This document shows positions 6,645 through 23,914 of a DNA stretch of 38,850 bases, piece after piece (positions within the stretch are counted from its first letter, which is position 1; every line of letters begins with the position of its first letter). The position numbers and the translations under genes were made by a program. This DNA is from Gemmatimonadaceae bacterium. GTDB taxonomy: Bacteria > Gemmatimonadota > Gemmatimonadetes > Gemmatimonadales > Gemmatimonadaceae. The stretch lies in NCBI GenBank assembly GCA_025929535.1, contig JAICLZ010000038.1:1-38850 (forward strand). The letters are read 5' to 3'. The notes beneath the pieces were generated by a model that was not told the DNA's origin, searched no databases, and saw only the letters and a list, made by a program, of their open reading frames with translations.

Positions 6645-8930
6645 TTACCACTGCTCCTTGAGTGAGCGCAGCTCTGCATTGCCGAGCGTTTCGGCACCAT
6701 CAGGGCTGACCTCGATCGCGATCTGCTGTCCGGACACGAGCACCCTGTCTCCTACCGCAAAGAGTGCCCGCAGATCCGGGATCGCATCGAGCACCGCGAA
6801 GTATGCCGGCGAGAAGGGCTTGATCTTCACGATCTTCGTCCCCGCCTTGAGGTTGATGTCCGTCCAGCGGTCGTTCCGATGCGCGAAGAGATGATTGCCG
6901 GCCCGCTTCATCGCATCCACGCGGTCCTTCTCCCTCGTGCCTGCGGCGCTTCCGCTACCCGAGATGACGACCTCTTGCAGCAGCAAGGGCTTGTCTAGCG
7001 AGCCGATCGATTTTGCATCGCGCTGCTCGGTCGCGGCTCTGGCGGCCTCGAACTTCGCCGCGGGTGCCGCGAGAGGACTGGATGCCGCCACCTGCTGCTC
7101 CTGCACCAGATATGACGTGAGCTCGGTCGGAATGCCATAGCGCTCGCCGAGCGTGCGCAGCTCATCGTCCACTTCGGGCGATGCGCCGTTCTGACGCCGC
7201 GCGGCGCTCAGCCAGCCGATGCGGCGCGTGGCCCAGAGCCTCGGCACGAACGCATTGTCGCGCTCGTGATCGGGAAAGTCGACCGTCGTCTCCCAATGCA
7301 CGGGGCCCGTGGCGCTCCGCCCGTCGAACGCGAGACGCGCGCGTCCGCTTCCGGAGTACCGCGAGAGGAGCACGAGATCCTGTCCGGCAAAGAGATCGAT
7401 CGGGCCTTCGGGAAGCGCGTGCACGAGCCGCACGCATTCGTTTCCGATTTCCCCGCTTCCGCCGCACCGCACGGCCACGCGGAGGTCGCTGGCGATCGGG
7501 CTGGTGAGTCGCGATGCCACGAGTCCCACGGCGCGCTCGACATCTTCCTCTGGGCGCACGAACTGCGCGGTGCCGTGTCCCTCGAGTGCGAGCTGCTCGA
7601 TGAGCTGCGCGTTCACGTCCGCACCGAGCCCGAAGGTGAACACACGCTGCGAGCCGCGCAGCCGGGCGGCGTGTGCAGCGATTGCCGCGGGATCGCGCTC
7701 GCCAATCGTGGGCTCGCCGTCGGTCACGAAGAGGACGACGGACAGGCGCCCTTCGCTCTGATGCGATGGACGATGCGCATACTCATCGCTGTCGCCTTCG
7801 CGGTTCTCATCCTCGCGCGAGCGCGGCGGCGCCAGCGCGAGCTCGAGCGCGCCGTCGATGTTGGTGCCGCCGTTCGCCTGGAGCTCACTCAGGTAGCGCG
7901 TTGCCGCTGCGATGTTCGCAGGCGTCGCGTCGACGAAGTCATCGCGAAAGGTGCGGACATCGCTCGAGAAGTCGATCATGCGAAAGCGGTCGTTGCGGGA
8001 GAGTGTGCCGAGCAGCTGCTTCCCGGCTGCGCGAGCCTGCTCCATTTTGCGCCCGCTCATCGAGCCGGACACATCGAGCACGAAGGTGATGTCGCGCGGC
8101 ACGGTTGCCGTTTGCCGGGATGGCGGCGTGAGCGTGATCAACGCGAAGCCGTCCTCGGAGCCCGGCGCATTCGCGAGCACGGAGATCGCGGCGCGATCCG
8201 TACGCGACGTGGGGATCAGAATGGTCACCGCGGCCCCTTCGCCGCCCACATCGACCACGCACTGCGAGCCGGAGCTCGAGCGCGACTGCAGCTCCTGAGT
8301 TGGCGAGTACGCGTTGCATCGACCGGGGTTCGGGTAGCGCAGCGTGAACGACGATTCGCGCGCATCGTGCGTGTCCGTACCCGACGCCACGAGTGTGCGC
8401 CCGCTGCCGCGCTGATAGTCGACGCGAATCGCGTCACCCTCGCGCGGGGCGATCACCTGGAAGCGAAGCACAACGCGCTTCTCTTCACCGGGATTGATCG
8501 GAAAGATGCGCGCGCGCAGCAGTCCGTAGCCCATCCACTCGACGAGCGCGGGATCGCGCTGGCGGCGCACGATCTCCTCGTAGGTGGAGCGCGCGCGCGC
8601 CGCATCCATGATCTCGCCGCTCATGAGCTGCCCGTTGATCGAGAGCTGGAGCTCCTGAAAGGCGGCGCCGGCGGGAAGCGGATACATGTAGTCCGCCTCC
8701 TGCACGGTTGCGCCGCGATTGCGGAACGTCTCCTCCACCTCATAGCGGAGCACGTGATCGGCGAGCGTCGCGCGCACGTTGCTCGACGTGCGCTCGAGCG
8801 CGACGGGCGGCGCGATGCACCTGTCCAGGCACACGGGTGGCCGAATCGGTGGACGGGGAATGATCCATCCCTGGGCGAGCAGTGCCGTGGGAAAGGCGAG
8901 GTGAAAAACGAACAGGGCCGGGGCGCGCAT
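6645..8930 (-). CDS. Exported VIT-vWA domain protein
   Basis: A 761-residue protein with a signal peptide (residues 1-20), a VIT domain (about 42-165, containing YMYPLPAGAAF and ARSTYEEIVRRQRDPALVEW) and a von Willebrand A domain (about 280-475) with a complete MIDAS start, DVSGSMS (Asp286, Ser288, Ser290), and VTDGEPT with Asp404. Proteins of this plan resemble inter-alpha-trypsin-inhibitor heavy chains and probably bind proteins through a metal ion at the envelope. After about residue 610 comes an Ala-rich linker, then LQEVVISGSG (651-660) and a 100-residue tail. The ATG at 8930 has an AGAGGAGA site at good spacing. It is first in the operon with the sigma and anti-sigma genes. Confidence 0.88.
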   Translation of the reverse strand: MRAPALFVFHLAFPTALLAQGWIIPRPPIRPPVCLDRCIAPPVALERTSSNVRATLADHVLRYEVEETFRNRGATVQEADYMYPLPAGAAFQELQLSINGQLMSGEIMDAARARSTYEEIVRRQRDPALVEWMGYGLLRARIFPINPGEEKRVVLRFQVIAPREGDAIRVDYQRGSGRTLVASGTDTHDARESSFTLRYPNPGRCNAYSPTQELQSRSSSGSQCVVDVGGEGAAVTILIPTSRTDRAAISVLANAPGSEDGFALITLTPPSRQTATVPRDITFVLDVSGSMSGRKMEQARAAGKQLLGTLSRNDRFRMIDFSSDVRTFRDDFVDATPANIAAATRYLSELQANGGTNIDGALELALAPPRSREDENREGDSDEYAHRPSHQSEGRLSVVLFVTDGEPTIGERDPAAIAAHAARLRGSQRVFTFGLGADVNAQLIEQLALEGHGTAQFVRPEEDVERAVGLVASRLTSPIASDLRVAVRCGGSGEIGNECVRLVHALPEGPIDLFAGQDLVLLSRYSGSGRARLAFDGRSATGPVHWETTVDFPDHERDNAFVPRLWATRRIGWLSAARRQNGASPEVDDELRTLGERYGIPTELTSYLVQEQQVAASSPLAAPAAKFEAARAATEQRDAKSIGSLDKPLLLQEVVISGSGSAAGTREKDRVDAMKRAGNHLFAHRNDRWTDINLKAGTKIVKIKPFSPAYFAVLDAIPDLRALFAVGDRVLVSGQQIAIEVSPDGAETLGNAELRSLKEQW

Positions 8931-9013
8931 GGGTAGTCTCCTCTGGGTCGAGAAGGAGACGCCGGCCGCGCGCGAACTTGCACACGCGGGCGTCGAGCCC
9001 CTGAAAACGGGGG

Positions 9014-9051
9014 TTGACGAGCGACGATCATTCATATAACATGTGGGTTAT
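9014..9051 (+). promoter_or_regulatory. Promoter and operator of the arsR-like operon
   Basis: TTGACG (9014-9019) and TATAAC (9035-9040) make a -35/-10 pair with 15 bp between them (16 if GTTGAC is used). The -10 box is part of the inverted repeat ATAAC-ATGTGG-GTTAT (9036-9051), which also covers the start region. GGTTATG recurs 13 bases later (9059-9067 region). The layout suits repression by the ArsR-type product of the gene itself. Confidence 0.55.
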
Positions 9052-9448
9052 GCAACCGCATGGTTATGTACGATCGTCACCCGCGCGCCTCGACGCCGTG
9101 TTCGCCGCCCTCGCCGATCCCACGCGACGCGCCATCCTCGCGCGCCTCGCGTCGGGTGAGGCATCGGTGGCGGAGCTCGCGAAGCCGTTCGCGATGAGCC
9201 AGCCCGCCATCTCGAAGCACCTCAAGGTGCTCGAGCGCGCCGGGCTCGTCTCGCACACCACGCGCGCGCAGCAGCGTCCCCGTCGCATCGAAGCCGAGCC
9301 GCTCGCCGAAGCGACAGCGTGGCTCGAGCGTTATCGCGAGCTCTGGGAGAGCAACTTCCTCCGTCTCGACGATCTGCTCGAGGGGCTCAAGGCCTCGAGT
9401 ACGAGCACGGCCAAGAAAACCCCGCCCACGAAACGAAAGAGGAGATAG
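9050..9448 (+). CDS. ArsR-family winged-helix regulator
   Basis: A 132-residue regulator of the ArsR subfamily that usually sits with SRPBCC genes. LDAVFAALADPTRRAILARL opens the winged-helix domain (about residues 14-33), and the recognition helix is in MSQPAISKHLKVLERAGLV. There is no cysteine cluster, so it is unlikely to be a metal sensor. The tail is very basic (KKTPPTKRKRR). Starts at 9014, 9041 and 9050 are possible; the promoter at 9014-9040 would begin the transcript around 9047, which favours the ATG at 9050 and a nearly leaderless message. It is followed after 3 bp by the VOC gene. Confidence 0.9.
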   Translation: MQPHGYVRSSPARLDAVFAALADPTRRAILARLASGEASVAELAKPFAMSQPAISKHLKVLERAGLVSHTTRAQQRPRRIEAEPLAEATAWLERYRELWESNFLRLDDLLEGLKASSTSTAKKTPPTKRKRR

Positions 9449-9451
9449 TCG

Positions 9452-9859
9452 ATGCCGGCAATGGAGTGGAAGCTCGAGCTCGTACCGATTCCCGTCTCCG
9501 ACGTGGACGCCGCAAAGCGCTTCTACATCGAGAAGATGGGCTTCACGCTGGATCACGATGTCGCGCCGAACGCGCACTTCCGAGTCGTGCAACTCACGCC
9601 TCCGGGCTCGGCCTGCTCGATCTGCTTCGGCCGCGGAATCGTGAAAACGGAACCGGGCTCGGTGCAGGGGCTGCATCTCGTCGTCACCGACATTCACGCC
9701 GCGCGCGCGCAGCTCGTCGAGCGCGGCGTCGAGGCGAGCGACGTGCAGGAGCTCGGCGCCGGAATCTTCTTCGTCTTCCTGAAGGACCCGGATGGCAATA
9801 GCTGGGCGATCCAGCACATCGCCCCGGGAGCCCGCGGTGCAAAAGGTGGCCAGCCATGA
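9452..9859 (+). CDS. VOC (glyoxalase-fold) family protein
   Basis: A 135-residue protein with a single vicinal-oxygen-chelate domain: LELVPIPVSDVDAAKRFY opens the first beta-alpha module, and LKDPDGNSWAIQ near the end is the typical closing strand. Members include glyoxalases, dioxygenases and antibiotic-binding proteins, and a single domain of this kind usually dimerises. The substrate cannot be read from sequence. It begins 3 bp after the ArsR gene, and its last four bases overlap the ATG of the SRPBCC gene (ATGA), so all three are one operon. Confidence 0.88.
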   Translation: MPAMEWKLELVPIPVSDVDAAKRFYIEKMGFTLDHDVAPNAHFRVVQLTPPGSACSICFGRGIVKTEPGSVQGLHLVVTDIHAARAQLVERGVEASDVQELGAGIFFVFLKDPDGNSWAIQHIAPGARGAKGGQP

Positions 9860-10350
9860 AGAACAGCGGCAATCTCACGGTCACGACGCCGAGCGATCGC
9901 GAGATCGCGATGGCGCGCGTGTTCGATGCACCCCGGCATTTGGTCTTCGACGCGTACACGAGGCCGGAGCTCGTGCGCCGCTGGCTCGGCGTCTTCGGCG
10001 GCTGGACGTTCGCCGTCTGCGAGATCGATCTGATGGTGGGCGGCACGTACCGCTATCTGTGGAACGGACCGGAGGGCGCGACGCTCGGCATCCGCGGCAC
10101 CTTCATGGAGATCGAGCGCAACGCGCGCATCGTGTGCACCGAGCGCTTCGACCCGCCCTTCGATCACGGTGAAGCGATCGACACCGTCACCTTCATCGAG
10201 CACGCGGGCAAGACCACACTCACCATCACCGTGCTCGCCCCCTCGAAGGAAGCGCGCGACGGGATGCTCCAGTCGGGAATGGCCGACGGCGTGACCGCGA
10301 GCTTCGACAACCTGGATGGCGTGCTCGCTTCACAGACGCCGTCGGAGTGA
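9856..10350 (+). CDS. SRPBCC (AHSA1-like) domain protein
   Basis: A 164-residue protein of the START/Bet v1-like SRPBCC superfamily, AHSA1 branch. Typical segments are IAMARVFDAPRHLVFDAYTR (about 17-36), VRRWLGVFGGW, then GGTYRYLWNGPEG and GTFMEIERNARIVCTERFD. The fold makes a deep hydrophobic pocket; the ligand is unknown. ArsR-VOC-SRPBCC clusters are common in soil bacteria, and the regulator probably responds to whatever the two small proteins bind or alter. Translation is coupled to the VOC gene by the ATGA overlap. Confidence 0.9.
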   Translation: MKNSGNLTVTTPSDREIAMARVFDAPRHLVFDAYTRPELVRRWLGVFGGWTFAVCEIDLMVGGTYRYLWNGPEGATLGIRGTFMEIERNARIVCTERFDPPFDHGEAIDTVTFIEHAGKTTLTITVLAPSKEARDGMLQSGMADGVTASFDNLDGVLASQTPSE

Positions 10351-10368
10351 GCCGAGGACTCGTGCACT

Positions 10369-10857
10369 GACGGACCGAACGGACACGAACGGACACCAAC
10401 GGCTGAAGCGTCGGCTCGGACCCGCGCTCGGCGAGTACGCTGCGCCTGGAGAGCGGGATGTTTTTGGTTGGCAACTGAAGCAGCTGCAGGGACGCTCTCC
10501 CCTGCCGTTTCCAGTCAAAAATCAGTTGCTTCTCTCCCGAGCGAGCATCATGCCGAGGGGATCGTAGCGGTTTCGCCGTCTCCGTTCGATCCGTTTTCAA
10601 TCCGTTTTTTCATCCGTATCTCAAAAATGTAAGAGCCAGCCCGAGCGGCTGTTCCGTTCTGGGCAGGCGCGCACGACTCAAGCATCAACAATTCTTTGAA
10701 TACAGATTGAACGAACTTGACGGATGAGAAAACGGATTGTGACGGGGCTCGGCGATGGGGCGGGTCGCATGGCGAGTGGTGCTTCTTTGGTTGGCAAGCG
10801 AAGCAACTGAAGGGTTTACGAGCTCACTACGCCTCGTTGCCCACACCCATCAGTGAT
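10369..10857 (-). repeat. Intergenic repeat family, copy A (inverted partner of copy B)
   Basis: This fills the 499-bp gap between the SRPBCC and HD-GYP genes. Read on the minus strand it has the same order as copy B: a box with TTGCTTCGCTTGCCAACC (10770-10815), ATCCGT-type words (10696-10740), a hairpin core (stem 10639-10664), the inverted ACGGAT words (10577-10620), a block with GACTGGAAACGGCAGGGG (10500-10550), a second CCAACC box (10441-10490), and GTCCGTTCGT tandem words (10369-10403). The inner end runs through GAGCTCACT and TGCCCACACCCATCA and covers the last codons of the HD-GYP gene. I see no convincing gene in it. The hairpin may end transcription of the operon. Confidence 0.85.
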
Positions 10858-12262
10858 GGATCGCCTCGTCGGGGATCGCGACCAGCTGGGCCGTCGGCGT
10901 CTTGATGCGGGTGTCGCGGTCGATTTCCGTGATCTGCGGCTCCAGGCGGCGCATCATCTGCGTGAATGACGTGGCGATCTCCGTCTCGAATTCGCGCCCC
11001 GCGCGCTCGTCGATGAACACGAGTGCGCGACCCGGCGGATACGGCTGCCGGTGTGCGCGCTCGATGCGCAGCGCGTTGTAGACGCTGCACACGCGCACCA
11101 GCTTGCTCGCGTAGTGCGTCGGCCGCCGGAAGAGCCGGTTCGGGTAGCCCGTGCCATCCGGACGCAGATGATGTTCGTACGCGACGCACGCCGCGAGCTC
11201 CTGCCGGCGGTCGCTCGAGAGAATGATCCGCGCGCCCTCGGTCGTGTGGCGCTCGATCACCGTGCGCTCCTCCACCGTGAGCTCGATGGGCTTGAGCAGA
11301 AGATCGCGCGGAATGCGCGCCATGCCGAGATCGTGCAGGAGCGCCGCCATCCCGAACTCGTGCACGTCGCGGCTGCCCAGCCCCAGAAACTCCGCCAGCG
11401 CCATCGTCAGCACGGCGACGTTGATCGAATGGATCGCGTTGTACGGGTCCGATGCCTTGAGTCGCAGGAGCGGGATGATCATCGCGCTCGAGCCCTTCAT
11501 CGCGACGGTGAGCGAGCGCACGACCGCGTCCGCCTCGACCAGCGGCACCTTGTCCGCTGTCGTGACCTGCTCGTACATCCACGTGACGGCGCCCGCCTCC
11601 TCATCCAGTCCGAACGGCAGCCCGACACCATCGGCGGGTGTGTGCGGGCCGCTGGCACCGCTGCCACCGCCGCCACCGCTTCCACCTCTTCCACCTACGC
11701 CACGCCCTCGCCCGCGCCCACTCCCGCCACCCGCACCGGGCGTTCCGCTCCCCGGCGTGCCCGCGCCGCGAAGCTCACCATCCGCAATGCTCCCTCCGCC
11801 ACCCTCACCCCAATCCAGGCTTGCCTCCTCGGCCTCATCCCGCACCATCACCGCGCCGAACTTGATGCTGTGCCGCTTCGACGTGTGCGAGGATCGGTCC
11901 TTGACGGTCCCCTCCGCGCCACTCTGCACGATCCGCTTCAGCACGTCCGCGAGAAACTCCTCGTACTCCTCACGGTCCACACCCACGCCGAACTCCAGCC
12001 GCTGCACGCCGACACCCGCGAGCTTCTCCGCCCATGGCCAGTCCTTCATGTCGTGCATCGGCGTCTGGCCGTAGATCACGTCCGTTCCGATGAACGAGAA
12101 CTGCGGAAGCGGATTCTCCTTCTGCAGCTCCACGAGATGCTGGTACGATGCATCCACCGCGCGCCCCCACGTCGGATGCTCGCGCGGATAGAGCATCATC
12201 GTCGACAGGCTTTGCGCGAGCGACGACAGATATTTCACGGGGCTGCCCGAGGCGCTGCTCAC
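10850..12262 (-). CDS. HD-GYP domain protein, copy 1, with glycine-rich insertion
   Basis: A 470-residue cytoplasmic protein. Residues 8-110 form a domain (YPREHPTWGRAVDASYQHL, then WAEKLAGVGVQRLEFGVGVD) that resembles the N-termini of the neighbouring HEAT proteins. A Gly/Arg-rich run follows (about 153-204). Residues 265-445 are an HD-GYP domain, a family that hydrolyses cyclic di-GMP: His278, HD (310-311), His339, EHH (363-365) and DGTGYP (369-374) are present. The later Asp pair expected in DVxDAL reads SVYNAL (393-398), so one metal ligand seems lost. The GTG at 12262 overlaps the TGA of the HEAT gene (GTGA). A longer open frame upstream lies inside that gene and was not used. Confidence 0.85.
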   Translation of the reverse strand: MSSASGSPVKYLSSLAQSLSTMMLYPREHPTWGRAVDASYQHLVELQKENPLPQFSFIGTDVIYGQTPMHDMKDWPWAEKLAGVGVQRLEFGVGVDREEYEEFLADVLKRIVQSGAEGTVKDRSSHTSKRHSIKFGAVMVRDEAEEASLDWGEGGGGSIADGELRGAGTPGSGTPGAGGGSGRGRGRGVGGRGGSGGGGGSGASGPHTPADGVGLPFGLDEEAGAVTWMYEQVTTADKVPLVEADAVVRSLTVAMKGSSAMIIPLLRLKASDPYNAIHSINVAVLTMALAEFLGLGSRDVHEFGMAALLHDLGMARIPRDLLLKPIELTVEERTVIERHTTEGARIILSSDRRQELAACVAYEHHLRPDGTGYPNRLFRRPTHYASKLVRVCSVYNALRIERAHRQPYPPGRALVFIDERAGREFETEIATSFTQMMRRLEPQITEIDRDTRIKTPTAQLVAIPDEAIHH

Positions 12263-14367
12263 GGCCCCCTCGAGCGAATCGCATTCTGCACCGCGGAATC
12301 CGGATCGCGCTCCGCGAGCGACAACACCTTGATCGCCTGCGGCTCCTGCGCCCAGCTCCACGCGAGCGCCGAGAGTGCGGCGAGCATCGGCTGGCTCTTG
12401 GGGGCGAGCTTGCGCCCGAAGAACCACGTGCGCTTTCTCGACAGCGCCGACTTGACCAGCACATCCAGCACGACCGGCAGGCGAACGGGCGCGATCACGC
12501 GGATCGCGAGCACCGCCATCATGCCGTCGAGCGAGCGCTGGTCCAGTCGCTCCGTCAACACGCCAACTGCCTCGCGCGGACACCCGCCCTCGAGCGCAGC
12601 GTTGAGCGCCGCGCGTACGATGCGCTCATCGCTGTCCGACACCGCGAGCGGGATCGCCTCCGCGCGCGTGGCGGGATCGCGTAGCAGCAGCGCGTAGGCC
12701 TCGCGGCGCACGCGCGGATCCGGATGCTTCGCGTAGGGAAGCGCGCTGAAGTCCTTCGGCCACGTCTCCAGTCGCGCCATCAGCAACAGCAGATTGCGCT
12801 GCACGTACCACGGAGCGCCCGGCAGCCGCACCACCACCGCATTCCCCACCTCCGGTCCGAGCTGCGCGAGCATCTCGAACAGACGCCACCGCGCCGTGCG
12901 ATCATCCTCGAGCTCCAGCGCATCCAGCAGGGCGCTTGCCGCCGGAAAGCCCACGCGCGCGACGAGCCGGTACAACACCTCGAAGTCGATCGGCCTGTCG
13001 CGCAGCAGCCGCCGAATCGTTCCCGTGTTGTCGAGATGCCGCCGCAGCGTCCACACCACCGAGTTCGTCTCGGGAGTCTGATCCACGATCGCCAGCAGCG
13101 CCGAGATGCGCCCCGCCTTCACCATCTCCGCCACCGCGTGCTTCGCCGTCGCGCCGAACAGCTCCACCTCCAGCGACATCTGCACGATGTACTCGTCGTT
13201 CACATCCCACTGGCCGGAGCTGGCTGGTGCATTCGTCGCCGGCTCGGCGATCAGCTGCTCGAGCGTCTGCCAATAGCTCTCTTCCGGCAGCGCCGCCGCG
13301 CCGTCCCAGTCATCGATGAGCTGCCGCATGTTCTCGCGGAGCGCCGTGTCCGCCTTCTCACGCCGATTGGGCGATCCCTTTTCCGAATGCTTGGCGAGCT
13401 TCGTCAGGAGGAGCAGCAGCGCCTCCGACATCGTGTGCTCCGATGCGCTGGCGACTGCCTTTGCGAGATCGAGCACCGTGTCGGCGGCGAGCGTGTGCGA
13501 TGCGTTGAGCAGGAATTGCCGCCGCTGCGCACCGGGGCTCGTGCGCTTGAGAATCTGCTGCAGCGTCTCGGGCGAGAGCGCAGTCACGAGCTTCGACACC
13601 TTTCGCTTGAGCGCACCCGACGCCTGGCCGCCCTTCGCCTTGATCTCGTCCATGAACTGGCCGAAGAAGGCGACGATGCCCTTGTCGAACTCGGGATCGC
13701 GCTCGTGTCGCTCGATCGCGCTCGCCAATGCGAGCGGATCCATCGGCGTGTCGGGCGTCAGCGTCGCGTCGCTCTCACCCGTGCGAGCTCCAGTGCCATC
13801 GCCTCCGCCACCGTTGCCGTTCCCGCCATAGAGCGATGCGCTGGCGAGCTTTCCCCACAGCTGCGCCGCCCACCCGGCGCGCTGCTCCGACGTCTGGTCA
13901 TCCACATCCTGCTGCAGCTCGAGCTGGTCGTACGTGAGCGGAAAGAGTCGCACGTGCTGCCACTCGCGCGGCGCCTCCTCGCGTCCGCTCTGCGGCGTCT
14001 CGCGCGCGATCACCGCGAGCACCTCCTGCAGCTCGGACTCCTGCACACCCTCGTACAGGCGGATCGCGCCGATCTCCCGCCGAAAGAGCTTGTGCGCGAG
14101 ATCGCGCGTCACCGTGTGCGCCGGATCCGTGGGCGCGCCATCGATCACGAGATGATTGCGCGCGACCGCGATCGCGATCATCTGCCGCTCCGACAGCGCG
14201 AGCGTCAGTCGCCGCGTGAGCCCGGATACCGCGGACTCGAGCAGCGGATGCCCATTCGGATACATCGAATACTTGTGCAGCCCGACCGACAGCTCGACCA
14301 TGAGGTCGGCCATGTCGCGGCTCAGCGCATCCGTGGGCGTACTGGTGCTGACCTGCGGGGCTGGCAC
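12259..14367 (-). CDS. HEAT-like repeat protein, copy 1, partner of HD-GYP copy 1
   Basis: A 702-residue, mostly helical protein with no signal peptide or membrane segment. The first 125 residues (LMVELSVGLHKYSMYPNGHP, then LAHKLFRREIGAIRLYEGV) match the N-terminal domain of the HD-GYP neighbours. A Gly/Asn-rich loop lies near 180-200. From about residue 400 the sequence runs as HEAT-like helix pairs, such as APWYVQRNLLLLMARLETWP, HPDPRVRREAYALLLRDP and SDERIVRAALNAALEGG. HEAT solenoids bind other proteins. It is the first gene of the operon, overlaps the HD-GYP gene by four bases, and has a close paralogue at 16435-18525. Function is unknown; a scaffold or regulator for the HD-GYP partner is an inference. 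Confidence 0.82.
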   Translation of the reverse strand: MPAPQVSTSTPTDALSRDMADLMVELSVGLHKYSMYPNGHPLLESAVSGLTRRLTLALSERQMIAIAVARNHLVIDGAPTDPAHTVTRDLAHKLFRREIGAIRLYEGVQESELQEVLAVIARETPQSGREEAPREWQHVRLFPLTYDQLELQQDVDDQTSEQRAGWAAQLWGKLASASLYGGNGNGGGGDGTGARTGESDATLTPDTPMDPLALASAIERHERDPEFDKGIVAFFGQFMDEIKAKGGQASGALKRKVSKLVTALSPETLQQILKRTSPGAQRRQFLLNASHTLAADTVLDLAKAVASASEHTMSEALLLLLTKLAKHSEKGSPNRREKADTALRENMRQLIDDWDGAAALPEESYWQTLEQLIAEPATNAPASSGQWDVNDEYIVQMSLEVELFGATAKHAVAEMVKAGRISALLAIVDQTPETNSVVWTLRRHLDNTGTIRRLLRDRPIDFEVLYRLVARVGFPAASALLDALELEDDRTARWRLFEMLAQLGPEVGNAVVVRLPGAPWYVQRNLLLLMARLETWPKDFSALPYAKHPDPRVRREAYALLLRDPATRAEAIPLAVSDSDERIVRAALNAALEGGCPREAVGVLTERLDQRSLDGMMAVLAIRVIAPVRLPVVLDVLVKSALSRKRTWFFGRKLAPKSQPMLAALSALAWSWAQEPQAIKVLSLAERDPDSAVQNAIRSRGP

Positions 14368-14465
14368 GGGCGTCGAGGGGGATCGAAGAATGGAGGCTGG
14401 CCGTCGCCAACCCCTCCGAATACGACAGCCACACCCCTCGCTACGTCACGGGCAAATCGCCCGGA

Positions 14466-14944
14466 ATCAGTGATGGGTGTGGGCAGCGAGGCGCAGTGAG
14501 CTCATAGAACCTTCAGTTGCTTCGCTTGCCAACCAAAGAAATGCCGCTCGCCATGCACACCGCCCCAACGCCGAGCAGCGATCGATCCGTTTTCTCATCC
14601 GTCAAATCCGTTCCATTCGTATTTTCACAATTGTTGATGCCTGAATCGTGCGCACCTGCCCAGAACGGCAACGGCCGCTCGGGCCGGCTCTTACATTATT
14701 GAGATACGGATAACAAACGGATTGAAACGAATTGAACGGAGACGGCAAAACTCCACGGTTTCCGTCGTCATCGCGCGGGAGCAAAGACAACCGACTCTTG
14801 ACTGGAAACGGCAGGGGAGGAGCATCCCTGCCGCTGCTTCCGTTGCCAACCAAAAACATCCCGCTCCCCAGGCGCAGCGTCCTCACCGAGCACGGCTCCG
14901 AGCAGACGCTTTTTCCGTTCGTGTCCGTTCTGTCCGTTGGTGTC
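14466..14944 (+). repeat. Intergenic repeat family, copy B (inverted partner of copy A)
   Basis: This is the main content of the 836-bp gap between the two HEAT/HD-GYP operons. Order on the plus strand: TGATGGGTGTGGGCA and GTGAGCTCAT (14471-14504), a CCAACC box (14511-14556), words ATCCGT at 14585, 14597 and 14606 plus ATTCGT at 14615, a hairpin core (stem 14658-14684), inverted words ACGGAT at 14706 and 14717, ACGAAT at 14727 and ACGGAG at 14736, a block ending ACTGGAAACGGCAGGGG (14777-14816), a second CCAACC box (14834-14872), and CCGTT tandem words (14913-14942). The two CCAACC boxes are about 323 bp apart, so this is about 1.3 units of a tandem repeat. Confidence 0.85.
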
Positions 14945-15079
14945 GTCTCATCCAACGCAGTTGACCTTTCGAGTCGCGCGCGCCTGACCACAAGGGCAAG
15001 AACAAGGGCAACGGCAACCGGGGAACGTCCACACAAACGGAGCTGACGGACACAGACGGAAGCGGCGGCAACCCTGACC
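14945..15079. other. Non-coding spacer between repeat copies
   Basis: The stretch holds an AAGGGCAAGAACAAGGGCAA direct repeat (around 14991-15010) and further ACGGA words (15042-15060) that look like worn pieces of the same repeat family. I see no gene. Confidence 0.5.
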
Positions 15080-15190
15080 GCATGATGCTCGCTCTGGAGA
15101 GAAACAACTGATCTTTGCTGGAAACGGCAGGGGTTGATGCTTGCCTCATGCGCGCCTGCCCGAAACGGCAACAGCCGCTCGGGCTGGCAC
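15080..15190 (+). repeat. Partial copy of the intergenic repeat, abutting HD-GYP copy 2
   Basis: GCATGATGCTCGC, then the block ending CTGGAAACGGCAGGGG (to 15133), is joined directly to the hairpin core (TTGATGCTTG..., stem GCCCGAAACGGC-AACA-GCCGCTCGGGC at 15158-15184). The CCAACC box and ATCCGT words that separate these parts in the full unit are missing. It ends 14 bp from the HD-GYP stop, where its hairpin could act as a terminator. Confidence 0.75.
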
Positions 15191-15203
15191 TACTACCGCC
15201 CGA

Positions 15204-16460
15204 TCACGTACGAACGATCGGGGTGCCGCGCGGCGTCATCAGCGATGCGTGCGCCGGCACGGGGAGCTGCTCGCCGGCGGCGCGCGCAAGCAGCGGTTGC
15301 CCTTCCTCCAGCGGAATGATCCGCCGCTCCCACCGGCGCATCATCGTCACGAAGGCCTTGGCGATGTCCGCATCGAACACCGTTCCTGCCTTGTCCTCCA
15401 CGTAGCGCAGCGCACTCTCCGGCGTCCACGCGCCGCGATGGAAGCGCCGCGTGCGCAGCGCATCGTAGCAGTCGCACACCTGGACCAGCTTGCTCGCGTA
15501 GTGACACTCGCGCTCGAAATGCGGCGTTGGATATCCCTGGCCGCCCGGCAGCATGTGGTGCTCGTACGCAACCACTGCCGCCACATCGAGCTGCGGCTCG
15601 CTCATGAGAATGATGCGCGCGCCCTCGACGGGGTGTTGGCGGATGACATCCCACTCCTCGTCCGTTGGCGGCCCGGCCTTCGACACGATGTCCTTCGGCA
15701 CCTTCGTCATTCCGACGTCGCGCAGCAGCCCCGCCACGCCGATCGCTCGCGTGTCACGGCTGCCCAGGCCGAGAAATTCGGAGAGGCCCATCACGAGCAC
15801 ACTCACGTTGAGCGCGTGCGCCGTGGTGTACTGATCGAACTCCTTGAGCTGCAGCAGCGGCATCAGGATCTCGCTGTCGCCGTGCATCGCGACCGACAGC
15901 GATGCGACCACGGCCTCGATCTCGCCGGCGGGGAGCGGGCGTCCTGCCTCCACCTCGCCGTAGATCATCCCGATCGTCTCCGCTTCCTCGTCGAGCGGAA
16001 AGCTCATCCCCATGATCGGCAGCGGATCCGTGAGGAACTGCTCGGCATCGCCGCGCACGCCGATCGCGCCGTACTTGATCGAGGTGTACTCCGACCCTTC
16101 GTGCCGCTGCGTGTGGCGCGGATCGCGCCATCCCGGCGTCACCTCGGCCATGATCGTGTAGAGGAAATCGTCGAACTCCTCCCTGATCACCGCGCACACG
16201 AACTCCATGCGCTGAATCCCCGACCTCGTGAAGCGCTCGCACCACTCCCAGTCCTTCAGCTCGCGCAGGTGGCGGTTCTGGAACACCACCTCGTCGCCCA
16301 GAAACGAGAACTTCAGCACGAGCTCCGATCGCTGAAGCTCCTGCACGGCCTCGAACGCCAGCTGCGCGGACTTCGCGCGCGCCGGGTGCGTGGGCCCGTA
16401 GAGCGCCATCGCCGAGAGCGACTTCCCGAAGGCGTTAAGGAAGCGAATTGGATCTGTCAC
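15204..16460 (-). CDS. HD-GYP domain protein, copy 2, with degenerate HD and GYP motifs
   Basis: A 418-residue paralogue of the protein at 10850-12262, without its glycine-rich insertion. Residues 1-105 are the shared N-terminal domain (ALYGPTHPARAKSAQLAFEA). The HD-GYP domain (about 200-385) keeps His215, His276, EHH (300-302) and DCYDAL (330-335), but the HD pair is Arg247-Asp248 (GLLRDVGM), and the DGxGYP motif is GGQGYP (306-311). Loss of the metal-binding His argues against normal phosphodiesterase activity; it may bind the nucleotide or its partner instead. The GTG at 16460 overlaps the end of the HEAT gene by 26 bp and sits at the same point of the domain as in copy 1. Confidence 0.83.
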   Translation of the reverse strand: MTDPIRFLNAFGKSLSAMALYGPTHPARAKSAQLAFEAVQELQRSELVLKFSFLGDEVVFQNRHLRELKDWEWCERFTRSGIQRMEFVCAVIREEFDDFLYTIMAEVTPGWRDPRHTQRHEGSEYTSIKYGAIGVRGDAEQFLTDPLPIMGMSFPLDEEAETIGMIYGEVEAGRPLPAGEIEAVVASLSVAMHGDSEILMPLLQLKEFDQYTTAHALNVSVLVMGLSEFLGLGSRDTRAIGVAGLLRDVGMTKVPKDIVSKAGPPTDEEWDVIRQHPVEGARIILMSEPQLDVAAVVAYEHHMLPGGQGYPTPHFERECHYASKLVQVCDCYDALRTRRFHRGAWTPESALRYVEDKAGTVFDADIAKAFVTMMRRWERRIIPLEEGQPLLARAAGEQLPVPAHASLMTPRGTPIVRT

Positions 16461-18525
16461 TCGGTCTCCGTCTGGGAAGGGCGGCCGCACGTATGTCGAC
16501 GTCCTTCGATTTCTGTGCACGCTCGAGCACCGACTTCACGCTCGGCTCCTCGCTCCATCCGTGCGCGAGACCCGCGAGCGCCGCGAGCATCTCGGTGCTC
16601 TTGGGCACGAGCTTCATGCGCCCCAGCACCTTCGTTCGCTTGACGGCATAGCCGAGCAGCCACTCGAGCGTCTCGGGATCCGCGGACGCGCCCACGACGC
16701 GAATGCCGAGCGCGCGCATCTCGGGATGTACGGACCGGCGCTCGACGTTGCGCATGATGAGCGGCAGCGCCGCCTTGGGGCAGTCGTCGAGCGCAGCGGC
16801 CATGGCGGTCTTCACGATGCCGTCATCGCGATCGCTGAGCGCAGCAATGATCGTCGTCTGGCGATGCTGCGGCATGCGGAGCATCAGCTTGAGCGCCTCC
16901 CGCCGCACCCGCTCGTCGGAGTGCGTGAGGAAGAGCTGCGGCGAGAAGCCATCCGGCACTTTCGGAAGCAGCACGAGGAGCGTGAGCAGATTGCGCTGCA
17001 CGTACCACGGGATGTCCTCGTTCATGAGCCGCGTCACGATCATGGGGCCGGCGTCGGTGCCGAAGCGGGCGAGCAGATCGAGCAGCTTGCGGCGCATCGT
17101 GCGCGTCTCGCTGGTCTCGAGCCCGTCGAGCAGCAGCTCCACGACGTCGAGCCCCATGCGCTGCGAGATGCGCTCGAGCAGCGCCGGGTCGATCTGCTCC
17201 TCGCGCAGCAGGTGACGCAGGTTGTCGGGTGTGGCCACGAGCGGCCAGAGCTCCTCCGCGGTCGCGTTGTTCGCCGGCGCGCGATCGAGGAGATCGAGCA
17301 GCATCGCGATGCCGCCGTGCGAGATCAGCTGATTGACGGCGAGCCATACGGGTCCGCCGAGCGTGTCGGTCTCGAGCGCCGTGGCGACGAGGCGCTTCGG
17401 CTCGCACGGGTGCTGGCGCTGCAGCATGAGCGTGAACACGCGCCGTTGTGCCATGCGGTCGAGCGCGTCCTGATAGCCGTCGGGATTCAACCGGCGCGTG
17501 TCCCAGTTGTCGACGAGCTGCTCGACCTGGTCGCGCATGGCGGTCGATGCGCCGGCGCGCATGAGCGAACCACCTTTCTCCGCCTGCAGCGCGAGCTTGC
17601 CGAGGAGTCGGAGCAGCGAGCTGGAGATGGTCTGATTCGACGCCTTTGCCGCGGCCTGCACGAGCGCGAGCACGGCATCCGCGGCGAGATGCTGCGAGCT
17701 GTCCATCACGAACCGCTTCCGCTTCTCCGCGTCTCCACCCATGTCGAGCAGGCGATCGAGCGCGGCAGGCTGCAGCGACTTGATGAGCTCCGAAAGCTCC
17801 GAGGTGATCTTGATCGACTCCTCGCTCTGCGGTCCCTTCAGCGATTCGGTGAGCTGCATGAGAAAGCCCACCACCGACTGATCGTATGCGGGATCGCGCT
17901 TCTCGTTGATGGCGCTCGCGAGCACGAGCGGGCTGAGGAGCTCCTCGTTCCCGGGGTCGATGCCGACCATCAGTGTCGCGCGCGCGAGGGCGATCCAGAT
18001 GAGCTTCGCTCCGGCGCGCTTGTTCTCATCGCTCGTGAGACCGCTCTCCTCACCCATCAGCTCGAGCTTGTCGTAGGTGAGTGTGGTGACCTGGATGTGC
18101 GGCCAGCGGAGCGTCTGCGCAGCGATCGCGATCTGGGGCTTTTCGGTCTCCTCGATGGAAGAGGCGTAGAGGAAGTCGGCCAGCTCATCGCGCAGCACAC
18201 CCGGCACGATGCGGATCGAGCCGATGCGCTGGCGGTGCATCCGCTGCGCGAGCTCGCGCATGAGCGAATGGGCGGGATCGGTGGCAACGCTGCCGATCAC
18301 CACCTGGTTGCGGGCGAAGGCGAAGGTGACCGGATCGACGCCGTTGAGAATGGCATCGAGTCTCCGCACGCACTTCTCCACGGCGCCCGCGAGCTGGGGG
18401 TGGCCCTGGGGATAGATGGCGTGCTTCTGAACGGCGACCGCGAACTCGATGAGGAACTCCGCGAGGTTCTTCGGAATTCCACTCGAGCTCGGGCTCGCCG
18501 GAGGTGCGGCGGAGGGGTAGGTCAC
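16435..18525 (-). CDS. HEAT-like repeat protein, copy 2, partner of HD-GYP copy 2
   Basis: A 696-residue paralogue of the protein at 12259-14367, with the same plan. The N-terminal domain (LIEFAVAVQKHAIYPQGHP, then LAQRMHRQRIGSIRIVPGV) is followed by a helical middle and HEAT-like pairs from about residue 400 (DIPWYVQRNLLTLLVLLP, HSDERVRREALKLMLRMPQ). The C-terminal PKSTEMLAALAGLAHGW matches PKSQPMLAALSALAWSW of copy 1. It lacks the Gly/Asn-rich loop of copy 1. The start is GTG at 18525 with no clear ribosome site. It is the first gene of the second operon, which lies upstream of the first on the same strand, as expected from a tandem duplication. Confidence 0.82.
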   Translation of the reverse strand: MTYPSAAPPASPSSSGIPKNLAEFLIEFAVAVQKHAIYPQGHPQLAGAVEKCVRRLDAILNGVDPVTFAFARNQVVIGSVATDPAHSLMRELAQRMHRQRIGSIRIVPGVLRDELADFLYASSIEETEKPQIAIAAQTLRWPHIQVTTLTYDKLELMGEESGLTSDENKRAGAKLIWIALARATLMVGIDPGNEELLSPLVLASAINEKRDPAYDQSVVGFLMQLTESLKGPQSEESIKITSELSELIKSLQPAALDRLLDMGGDAEKRKRFVMDSSQHLAADAVLALVQAAAKASNQTISSSLLRLLGKLALQAEKGGSLMRAGASTAMRDQVEQLVDNWDTRRLNPDGYQDALDRMAQRRVFTLMLQRQHPCEPKRLVATALETDTLGGPVWLAVNQLISHGGIAMLLDLLDRAPANNATAEELWPLVATPDNLRHLLREEQIDPALLERISQRMGLDVVELLLDGLETSETRTMRRKLLDLLARFGTDAGPMIVTRLMNEDIPWYVQRNLLTLLVLLPKVPDGFSPQLFLTHSDERVRREALKLMLRMPQHRQTTIIAALSDRDDGIVKTAMAAALDDCPKAALPLIMRNVERRSVHPEMRALGIRVVGASADPETLEWLLGYAVKRTKVLGRMKLVPKSTEMLAALAGLAHGWSEEPSVKSVLERAQKSKDVDIRAAALPRRRPSDRSNSLP

Positions 18526-21313: not shown

Positions 21314-23713
21314 TCAGGGAAGAACGGTCACCAGCGCCGATCCGCTCTTCCCCTGCGTCGATGCGGTGATCGTGGCGACTCCAACTCCGACTCCGGTGAC
21401 GAGCCCATTGCCGTCGACGGTGGCCGCGTCGGCGTTGTTCGAATCCCACGTCACCACGTGTCTATGGCTGCCTGAGTCGGCCTCCTGGATCGACGCCGTG
21501 AGTTGCACTGTCGTTCCAACGAGAATCGCGGACGCCGGCGGCGTCACGGTTACGGACGACACCGGCGCCGCGTTCACCTGCAGCGTGGCCGTGCCCGACT
21601 TGCCCTCACTGGTTGCCGTGATGGTCGCGGTGCCGGGGCCGGTGGAGGTCGCGAGCCCGGAGTTGTCGACGGTCGCCACCGAGTGATCGCTCGAGTCCCA
21701 CGTCACGGTGCGACCGGTGAGCGGATGGCCCTGCGCATCCTTCAGCATCGCCGTGAACGCCGCCGTGCCACCGTCGGTGATCGTCTGACTCGGCGGATCC
21801 ACTGCAACGCTACCCACCGGAGGCGGATCGACGGTGAGCGTTGCCGCGTTGCTAGTTATCCCTTCGCTCGATGCGGTGATCTGGGCGGTGCCCGCCGCGA
21901 CGCCGGTTGCAACGCCTGAGGCGTCGATGGTTGCGACCGCGGTGTTGTCGGAATTGAACGTCACGGTGCGGCCGGTGAGCACATGACCCGCGGCATCCTT
22001 GGTCACGACCGTGAATGCCGGCGTCGTTTGCCCGACGACCACGGATTGCGTAGTGGGCGAGAGCTCGATCGACGCGATGGGAACATCGATCACGACGATC
22101 GTTGCCGTGCCGGTCTTCCCACCCGCGGTGGCGGTGACGGTCATGGTCCCGGGCGAAAGCGCAGTCACACGTCCGTTGCTCGAGACCGTGGCAATGTTGT
22201 CGTCGCTGCCGTCCCACGTGATGGCGCGTCCCGTAAGTGGATTTCCGTCCGCGTCCGTCGGCGTGGCGGTGAGCTGCTGCTGCTGAAGCACCACGAGCGT
22301 GTCGAGCGATGGCGTCACCGTGACCGAGGCTACCGGCACGGGCGCCACGGTCACCGTCGCGGTCGCGGATAGCCCGGTTCCCTGGAGCGTCGCCGTGATG
22401 ACGGCCTGGCCCGGAGCGCCGGGCGTCACGAACCCCGTGCCGCTCACGCTCGCGACGCTCGAATTGTTCGAGCTCCAGTTGATCACACGTCCGGTTTGCG
22501 AAAGCGTACCACCGGCCGAATCGAGCAGCGCGACTGCGAGCTGCGTTCCCTGATCACCCTCGGTGAAGGAGAGCGCATCCGGCGTCAGGGTGACTTTGCG
22601 TGCCGGTACGAGCGAGACCGTGACGTCCGCGGTGCCGTGCACGGAGCCGCTCGTCGCGGTGATGGTGGCGGTGCCGGGTGCGACGGCAATGACGAGCCCG
22701 GTCGAGCTGACCGTCGCGACCGCGCTGTTGCTGGACTCCCAGGTGATGGTCTGGCCGGGAATCGGGTTGCCGTTCGCGTCGGTGACCGTGCCCGTGAGCT
22801 GCTGCCGTTGCGTGACGAGCAGCGAGACGGTGCCCGGTGAGACGACGACGGCATTCGCCGGCGGCAGAGTGACGGTGACCGGCACGTTGACGTGCACGGA
22901 GCCGCTGGTGGCGGTGATCGTGGCGGTGCCCGCCGCCTGACCGGCAACCAGGCCGGTGGACCCGACGATCGCGACGGCGGGCTTGTCGACCGTCCAGGTC
23001 ACTGGCGCGCCCGAGATCACGCTGCCGTTGCCGTCCTTCACCGTTGCCGTGAGCTGCGATGTCTGCCCCGCGATGACGGTAATGCTCGGCGGCGCGACCG
23101 CGATGCTCGCGGCAACCGCGGCGCCCACGGCGATTCCGGAGGTGCCCGACTTTCCTTCGCTCGTGGCGGTGATCGTGGCAGCGCCGGAGGAGACGCCCGT
23201 GACGATGCCGGTGTTGTCGACGGTGGCCACGGCTTCATTGTCCGAAGACCACGTGACGGTGCGGCCCTCGAGGGCGTTGCCGCTGCCGTCGAGGGGCTCC
23301 GCGACGAGATGCACGGTCTCCCCCACCTTGATCGCGGCGCTGGTGGGCGTGACGCGCACCGAAGCGACGCCCGGCGGGATGACCACGATCGTCGTGATTC
23401 CGGATTTGCCGCCGGAGCTCGCGGCGATGTGCGCGGTGCCGACCGCGACGCCGGTGACGACGCCCGTGCCCGAGACCGTGGCGATGGCGGTGTTCTCGGA
23501 GCTCCAGAAGAGGCTGGGATTCCCGCTCGCGCCGTCTACCGTCGCATGGAGCGTGGACGTCGAGCCCAGCGCGACCGTGTCGGGGTTCGGCGTGATCGTG
23601 ACGCCATTGCCACCGCCGCCGGGGCCGGTGGAGTCGCCTCCACACGAGAGAGCGACCGCGCACGCGAGCAGGGAGAGGAACGGTATGAAGATCGAACGAC
23701 GTGCAGCACGCAT
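21314..23713 (-). CDS. Lipoprotein with nine Big2 immunoglobulin-like repeats
   Basis: A 799-residue surface or periplasmic protein. The N-terminal signal ends in a lipobox-like ALSC followed by GGDSTGPGGGG, a common lipoprotein spacer in this group. The rest is nine consecutive Big2 domains of about 85-90 residues; each has an opening like SVTVTP, a middle like GRTVTWDSSDHSVATVD, and a closing TGVGVGVATITASTQGKSG. They begin near residues 36, 122, 210, 295, 380, 465, 550, 635 and 720 (approximate). Such repeats are found in adhesins and extracellular stalks. The ATG at 23713 places the signal correctly; an upstream start at 23794 would bury it. Confidence 0.88.
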   Translation of the reverse strand: MRAARRSIFIPFLSLLACAVALSCGGDSTGPGGGGNGVTITPNPDTVALGSTSTLHATVDGASGNPSLFWSSENTAIATVSGTGVVTGVAVGTAHIAASSGGKSGITTIVVIPPGVASVRVTPTSAAIKVGETVHLVAEPLDGSGNALEGRTVTWSSDNEAVATVDNTGIVTGVSSGAATITATSEGKSGTSGIAVGAAVAASIAVAPPSITVIAGQTSQLTATVKDGNGSVISGAPVTWTVDKPAVAIVGSTGLVAGQAAGTATITATSGSVHVNVPVTVTLPPANAVVVSPGTVSLLVTQRQQLTGTVTDANGNPIPGQTITWESSNSAVATVSSTGLVIAVAPGTATITATSGSVHGTADVTVSLVPARKVTLTPDALSFTEGDQGTQLAVALLDSAGGTLSQTGRVINWSSNNSSVASVSGTGFVTPGAPGQAVITATLQGTGLSATATVTVAPVPVASVTVTPSLDTLVVLQQQQLTATPTDADGNPLTGRAITWDGSDDNIATVSSNGRVTALSPGTMTVTATAGGKTGTATIVVIDVPIASIELSPTTQSVVVGQTTPAFTVVTKDAAGHVLTGRTVTFNSDNTAVATIDASGVATGVAAGTAQITASSEGITSNAATLTVDPPPVGSVAVDPPSQTITDGGTAAFTAMLKDAQGHPLTGRTVTWDSSDHSVATVDNSGLATSTGPGTATITATSEGKSGTATLQVNAAPVSSVTVTPPASAILVGTTVQLTASIQEADSGSHRHVVTWDSNNADAATVDGNGLVTGVGVGVATITASTQGKSGSALVTVLP

Positions 23714-23914
23714 CGAGCACTCATTGTGGCGAGGATCCCACGCATCCGCGCGTGCGACAGCGCACGCGAAGCGACGCGGTGGGGGGTAGATCATAATGAA
23801 TCAGCACGCATCTGTGAAAGCGCGCTGGTTGAAATGTGCAAGCGATGAGCCACGTCCGGCGCTGGCAGGATAGCCGATGCGCGCCGAAAAGGGTCCATCG
23901 GTAGCGAAAGCTGC

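Follow-up and report, generated by a model that had tools for sequence, protein, structure and literature searches.

What do a HEAT-like protein and an HD-GYP protein do when their genes sit side by side, and what holds the two partners together? The question is raised by a stretch of 38,850 nucleotides from a Gemmatimonadaceae bacterium (assembly GCA_025929535.1, contig JAICLZ010000038.1), here called the window, in which two such gene pairs lie in tandem on the minus strand: HEAT2 with HD2 and, downstream of them, HEAT1 with HD1. With middling confidence we propose that they are a two-copy form of a conserved module, in which N-terminal domains likely join a scaffold to the HD-GYP protein, and that both HD-GYP proteins of the window are probably non-catalytic cyclic di-GMP receptors that would set the state of the scaffold.

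As judged by profile comparison, the N-termini of all four proteins are one domain family. A set of 36 HEAT N-termini aligned with 36 HD-GYP N-termini at a probability of 98.0% in hhalign (E 1.6e-13, 99 columns), whereas six other HEAT blocks, used as controls, gave 0.1-0.6%, which rules out a chance resemblance. After a second operon type had been added, 6/6 profile pairings were found at 93.6-98.0%. Additionally, residues 14-130 of HEAT2 matched the next downstream gene in seven relatives in whole-genome searches (E 9e-7 to 1e-3). A first-pass annotation of the window had pointed to a similar start of the four proteins, and the profiles bear this out: the N-termini do not fall into unrelated families. 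For the N-termini of the four proteins, Pfam and NCBIfam listed no match at E up to 1, a range in which matches above about 0.1 were mostly filtered.

The same annotation had described two features of this region, a Y-x-x-x-H-P phrase and a later GV/GI-x-R strand. Y, H and P are indeed invariant in 37 aligned N-termini, but a P after Y is not constant, HD2 reading YGPTHP. The strand can be matched between HD1 and HD2; in the alignment, however, its R and the R of the HEAT proteins fall in different columns. Predicted models of the HEAT2 and HD2 N-termini both run helix-helix-strand-strand-helix-strand-helix-strand, with one extra short helix ahead of the last strand in HEAT2, and in both the phrase directly precedes helix 2. 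In the HEAT proteins of the second operon type its H is mostly N (12/14, counted roughly with a regular expression that left rows unmatched and picked up stray letters). This position and this exchange suggest that the phrase may be a helix cap and not a binding site, a reading that also draws on the residue preference for helix capping; a sensing role of the phrase is thus less likely than a structural one.

The pairing is not confined to this locus. Matches to HEAT2 were found in 47/60 genomes, its own included and some of them merely weak C-terminal HEAT matches, and in 33/33 fetched loci the HD-GYP gene directly follows the HEAT gene, with frames broken by the assembly or by real frameshifts in a few. 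Named records yielded 106 loci; of the best 80, 75 have the pair, 70 of them flagged by script and five recognized by eye from an open frame reaching far upstream, and the other five stop at a contig edge. A further 40 loci gave the pair in 38, one of these with an HD-GYP gene of which just the beginning is present; the two remaining loci are cut. These sets of 33, 80 and 40 loci partly share genomes. Across the phylum, 146/249 genomes have a HEAT match at 1e-8, weak C-terminal matches included.

When the window's own genome was searched with the N-terminal profile, the four genes of the window came up together with a single further gene on contig 41. There, at about 17.9-21.1 kb (L251:7867-11103), a third operon encodes a HEAT protein (HEAT_2 67.3 bits), for which no plasmid match was found, and an intact HD-GYP protein; it is a diverged copy of the same plan with the same N-terminal domain. 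The second operon type, as distinct from the window's type 1, has the pair in 13/15 fetched loci of Gemmatimonadota relatives (L264 is cut, L265 has the HEAT gene alone), and the N-terminal domain of its HD-GYP protein was detected at E 0.02 or better in 11/13 (L260 0.5, L262 none). In another phylum, that of a genome titled Acidobacteria, 16/119 genomes matched at 1e-40 and 15 of these 16 carry HEAT-HD-GYP pairs, G327 being the one that does not. In ten of the 15 paired loci, both partners match type-1 N-terminal profiles at E 0.01, whereas the remaining five each have one or both partners that fit only the second-type profile, fit no type-1 profile or are cut. From this data we can conclude that the pair is conserved across Gemmatimonadota and beyond the present locus, and that the domain, first taken to be private to it, is not.

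Two observations stand beside this survey. Type-1 pairs also lie on contigs of assemblies titled Acidobacteria (L146) and Actinobacteria (L106), where transfer and contamination are both possible. At L053:559-2076 and L265:5863-7368, HEAT proteins some 500 residues long carry the N-terminal domain, with no adjacent HD-GYP match in the fetched stretch.

HD1 and HD2 belong to the HD-GYP family by curated profile (strong Pfam HD_5/HD matches; PF13487 67.5 and 65.0 bits) and by fold. We scored the active sites in PmGH numbering, taken from the excerpted text of PMC4159591, at H189, H221, D222, H250, H276, H277, D305, K225 and D308. HD1 carries K225M, D305S and D308N and keeps H189, H221, D222, H250, H276 and H277 together with an ordinary DGTGYP, while HD2 carries H221R and K225M, has G for the D before GYP, and keeps D305. 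The HD pair of H221 and D222 is therefore broken in HD2 only (R-D), HD1 having H-D; HD1 is without both D305 and K225, and HD2 without K225. Both have lost metal-coordinating residues, as would be expected of non-catalytic, DvhD-like receptors, and both keep GYP and the R at 314/317. The first-pass annotation had overlooked the active sites, and its label of a cyclic-di-GMP protein has to be qualified, because the metal site is altered in both proteins.

Most relatives keep the site. The fetched loci gave 144 type-1 partner HD-GYPs, 142 of them with complete motifs and 130 intact; with near-identical copies removed, 114/126 are intact. The 12 exceptions comprise four proteins of the window's genus, those of G040, G052 and G056, those of G125, G126 and G141, one with K225R and one with D305E. 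In the second operon type 13/13 HD-GYPs keep the seven ligands and K225, one having E at 308, and in the other phylum the seven ligands are kept in 20/20 scored proteins and K225 in 19/20. A set of 266 sequences among the matches listed, whose retrieval favoured relatives of HD1 and HD2, held 98 with D305S/K225M, 65 with H221R/K225M and 84 with all three residues kept; GYP was kept in 262/266 and R314 likewise in 262/266. Within the genus, the ratio of non-synonymous to synonymous substitution rates (dN/dS) is 0.09-0.11 for HEAT2 and HD2 and 0.17-0.21 for HEAT1; HD1 gave 0.17 and 0.34, the latter value from a 201-codon fragment. The residue losses are conserved and under purifying selection, and these ratios rule out that the degenerate genes are decaying pseudogenes. 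Loci L207, L213 and L214 have a single D305S/K225M pair and, on the opposite strand at its 3' end, a second HD-GYP frame with an HN pair, which in L214 also matches GGDEF.

The first gene of each pair is predicted to encode a HEAT-solenoid scaffold. The curated HEAT_2 profile gives the two window proteins only 17.7 and 24.3 bits, below the Pfam cut-off of 27.7. The AlphaFold model of HEAT2 (mean predicted local distance difference test, pLDDT, 84.8; predicted template modelling score, pTM, 0.50) is a long run of helices stacked in pairs as an alpha-solenoid. Its best PDB matches in Foldseek are mostly HEAT/ARM proteins, for example transportin and PP2A (ten best, E 3.4e-5 to 2.8e-4), at low template modelling scores (TM-scores) of 0.13-0.27 by query length. 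HEAT1 is homologous to HEAT2 along its whole length, at 35-37% identity. Among the open frames scanned there was no HEAT/HD-GYP fusion gene.

In part of the relatives the neighbourhood of the pair points to cyclic di-GMP turnover. Of the non-redundant loci, 116 extend 1.5 kb or more downstream, and in 18 of these a GGDEF gene lies directly after the HD-GYP gene and on the same strand, which suggests a local make-and-break circuit. All 18 adjacent cyclase genes have a GGDEF or GGEEF motif, 18/18 HD-GYPs at these loci are intact, and 11 of the 18 loci also have a VIT-VWA gene nearby. Within 2.5 kb of HD1 or HD2 the window has no GGDEF gene; cyclic di-GMP signalling is nevertheless likely present in the genome, because nine GGDEF matches lie elsewhere in it.

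How could the parts act together? The homologous N-terminal domains would bind each other and thereby hold the HD-GYP protein on the solenoid. Most relatives have an intact HD-GYP, and their pair would be a scaffolded phosphodiesterase hydrolysing the dinucleotide. In the window lineage the degenerate HD1 and HD2 would instead bind cyclic di-GMP as receptors, and the signal would pass from the HD-GYP receptor to the solenoid. We favour receptors because residues are missing from HD1 and HD2 without which PmGH hydrolysed less or not at all; K225A or D308A was as damaging there as the loss of a ligand (excerpted text of PMC4159591). A precedent is DvhD of Desulfovibrio vulgaris (9RBZ, 9RC0), an HD-GYP protein with a broken HD pair that binds cyclic di-GMP, with no metal seen according to the excerpted text of PMC13090378.

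Several points weigh against receptors joined to a scaffold. HD1 could be a weak enzyme, since its HD pair and the four remaining histidines are in place and since PmGH D305A retains residual activity (PMC4159591, excerpted text). DvhD is without the double histidine, whereas HD1 and HD2 keep it. The kept GYP and arginines say little about binding, because in the same source G284A, Y285A, P286A, R314A and K317A did not substantially lower the activity of PmGH. The ligand could be another dinucleotide. Tandem sets also occur in G106 and G144 and, in the other phylum, in G372 (L302, arranged HEAT-HD-HEAT-HD), and their HD-GYPs are all intact, so that doubling alone does not imply loss of catalysis; six single-copy partners elsewhere are likewise without K225 and D305. 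Finally, the homologous domains may each pair with themselves rather than across the two proteins.

A wider version of the proposal is tentative: heteromer-forming N-terminal domains of a widespread module would couple a dinucleotide-binding HD-GYP to a HEAT solenoid, and the window would hold a double receptor made of two pseudo-phosphodiesterases with different ligand losses, which read different dinucleotides or concentrations.

Other explanations have to be set against the receptor reading. HD1 might be a working, perhaps altered phosphodiesterase, with HD2 alone a pseudo-enzyme that regulates it as in enzyme/pseudo-enzyme pairs. The six retained residues and the ordinary DGTGYP of HD1 fit this idea, as does the residual activity of PmGH D305A, but HD1 also carries K225M and D308N, at the two positions where alanine equals the loss of a ligand in PmGH, and it shares its K225M/D305S set with many of the sequences listed (98/266). 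We consider a working HD1 rather unlikely. We judge it unlikelier again that the shared domain senses a ligand or a partner as an input and is not the joint between HEAT and HD-GYP, so that both proteins would read the same cue separately and be co-transcribed for stoichiometry alone. The short HEAT proteins of L053 and L265, which have the domain and no adjacent HD-GYP match in the fetched stretch, would be expected if this were so. Against it, most fetched loci have the domain in both members of the adjacent pair, and this in more than one operon type; moreover, the invariant phrase looks structural, given the N that mostly replaces its H in second-type HEAT proteins. Least of all do we expect a module unrelated to cyclic di-GMP, in which the degenerate HD-GYP would serve another process as a structural or interaction domain: the active site is intact in most relatives' partners, and the GGDEF genes adjacent to the pair in 18/116 loci point to this dinucleotide.

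How did the window come to hold two copies? The two HEAT/HD-GYP pairs are homologous and in tandem, in agreement with the duplication first proposed. It does not look recent, because HEAT1 and HEAT2 are only 35-37% identical and are not sisters in the tree; a single clade of the two is not rejected (approximately unbiased test, p-AU 0.26). The duplication orders of the HEAT and HD-GYP trees partly disagree; they neither establish nor reject a single duplication. One branch splits 26 rows with K225M from 32 intact rows at a support of 95.9, the K225M group having been chosen after the tree was seen and the motifs of the database rows checked. In the window lineage one enzyme would probably have lost K225 first and the set would then have doubled, after which the copies would have lost different ligands, H221 in HD2 and D305 in HD1. 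That doubling always brings catalytic loss is ruled out by the intact tandem copies named above.

In two sister species (L209, L035) the open frames of HD2 and HEAT1 lie 47 to 73 bases apart, stop to stop, and therefore the two operons of the first-pass annotation were probably once one four-gene operon. In the window this gap is occupied by one copy of a dispersed repeat (48 matches genome-wide, the window's own among them), which together with an inverted copy right after HD1 brackets the HEAT1-HD1 pair.

In most known HD-GYP proteins a single chain carries the domain together with sensor domains, and RpfG is one of the HD-GYP phosphodiesterases. Seen against such systems, the pair is a variant of HD-GYP signalling rather than a categorically new system. 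It resembles the phosphodiesterases PmGH (4MCW) and PA4781 (4R8Z) in the HD-GYP domain, recognized in HD1 and HD2 by sequence and in HD2 also by model, and in the residues that most relatives' partners keep (114/126). It differs from them in that HD1 and HD2 are each without a ligand and K225, in an N-terminal domain without a Pfam match, and in the HEAT-like gene that always precedes in the fetched type-1 loci. DvhD has periplasmic dCache and PAS domains, whereas HD1 and HD2 have another N-terminal domain and a HEAT-like partner. Bd1817 of Bdellovibrio (3TM8 and others), an inactive unconventional HD-GYP, is the best structural match of HD2 in VIA-align, a comparison that barely covers residues 1-150; as a difference, the excerpted text of PMC4159591 attributes to Bd1817 a di-iron centre and a site closed by a lid. 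The HEAT scaffolds PP2A A subunit and transportin share the alpha-solenoid of the HEAT2 model, but the TM-scores are low, no sequence kinship is shown, and HEAT2 adds an alpha/beta N-terminal domain.

No description of the HEAT/HD-GYP pair was found among the papers listed from the open-licence literature, judged by titles and abstract openings. A two-gene partnership of a HEAT-like and an HD-GYP protein is conserved in Gemmatimonadota, recurs in another phylum and occurs several times in tandem. Should the partners indeed be joined through their N-terminal domains, they would define a scaffolded form of cyclic di-GMP signalling, and the tandem set would give a traceable case of an enzyme turning into two receptors via different ligand losses.

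The positions of all features are collected in Table 1. The first-pass annotation had placed the four genes correctly, and the open reading frame list shows that the HEAT gene overlaps the HD-GYP gene in each pair, by 26 bases for HEAT2/HD2 and by 4 bases (GTGA) for HEAT1/HD1. The latter overlap holds with the GTG start of HD1, which is the one used by several of 18 HD1 homologues inspected. The region is without a sigma-70-like promoter and without an Rfam match, and it has 2 terminator-like sites against 4.1 expected.

Table 1. Features of the two gene pairs in the window. The N-terminal-domain profile contains the window's own four rows, so that the E-values of these four domains include self.
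Feature	Position	Strand	Description and evidence
HEAT2	16435..18525	-	696 residues, first gene of the upstream pair; open reading frame, sub-threshold HEAT_2, AlphaFold solenoid
HD2	15204..16460	-	418-residue degenerate HD-GYP protein; GTG start at 16460
HEAT1	12259..14367	-	702 residues, HEAT-like, encoded first in the downstream pair; open reading frame, sub-threshold HEAT_2
HD1	10850..12262	-	470-residue degenerate HD-GYP protein with Gly-rich linker; GTG start at 12262
HEAT2 shared N-terminal domain (YPQGHP)	18130..18474	-	profile E 6.4e-31
HD2 shared N-terminal domain (YGPTHP)	16131..16460	-	profile E 4.5e-36; structure model
HEAT1 shared N-terminal domain (YPNGHP)	13963..14313	-	profile E 1.0e-27
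HD1 shared N-terminal domain (YPREHP)	11909..12262	-	profile E 1.4e-36
HD2 HD-GYP domain	15261..15980	-	Pfam HD_5 9.4e-18; matches 4mcw, DvhD and Bd1817
HD1 HD-GYP domain	10919..11593	-	Pfam HD_5 1.6e-18; 4mcw E 8.2e-22
HD2 broken catalytic signature	15708..15722	-	R-D-V-G-M for H-D-x-G-K (H221R, K225M, PmGH numbering)
HD1 K225M position	11321..11323	-	HDLGM
HD1 D305S position	11084..11086	-	VCSVYNAL for VCDVYDAL
Dispersed-repeat copy right after HD1	10365..10857	-	inverted relative to the 14466-15191 copy
Dispersed-repeat copy in the HD2-HEAT1 gap	14466..15191	+	occupies the gap

Further along the window, a VIT-VWA gene lies at 6645-9035, 1.8 kb downstream of HD1; a gene of this kind is found within 2.5 kb of the HD-GYP gene in 17/116 loci, the window included. 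Between it and HD1 lies an ArsR-glyoxalase-AHSA1 gene set on the plus strand (9014-10350). On the other side of the tandem pairs, 21314-23794 encodes a protein of 826 residues with nine Big_2 stretches and Big_1 domains, which is likely a surface or secreted protein.

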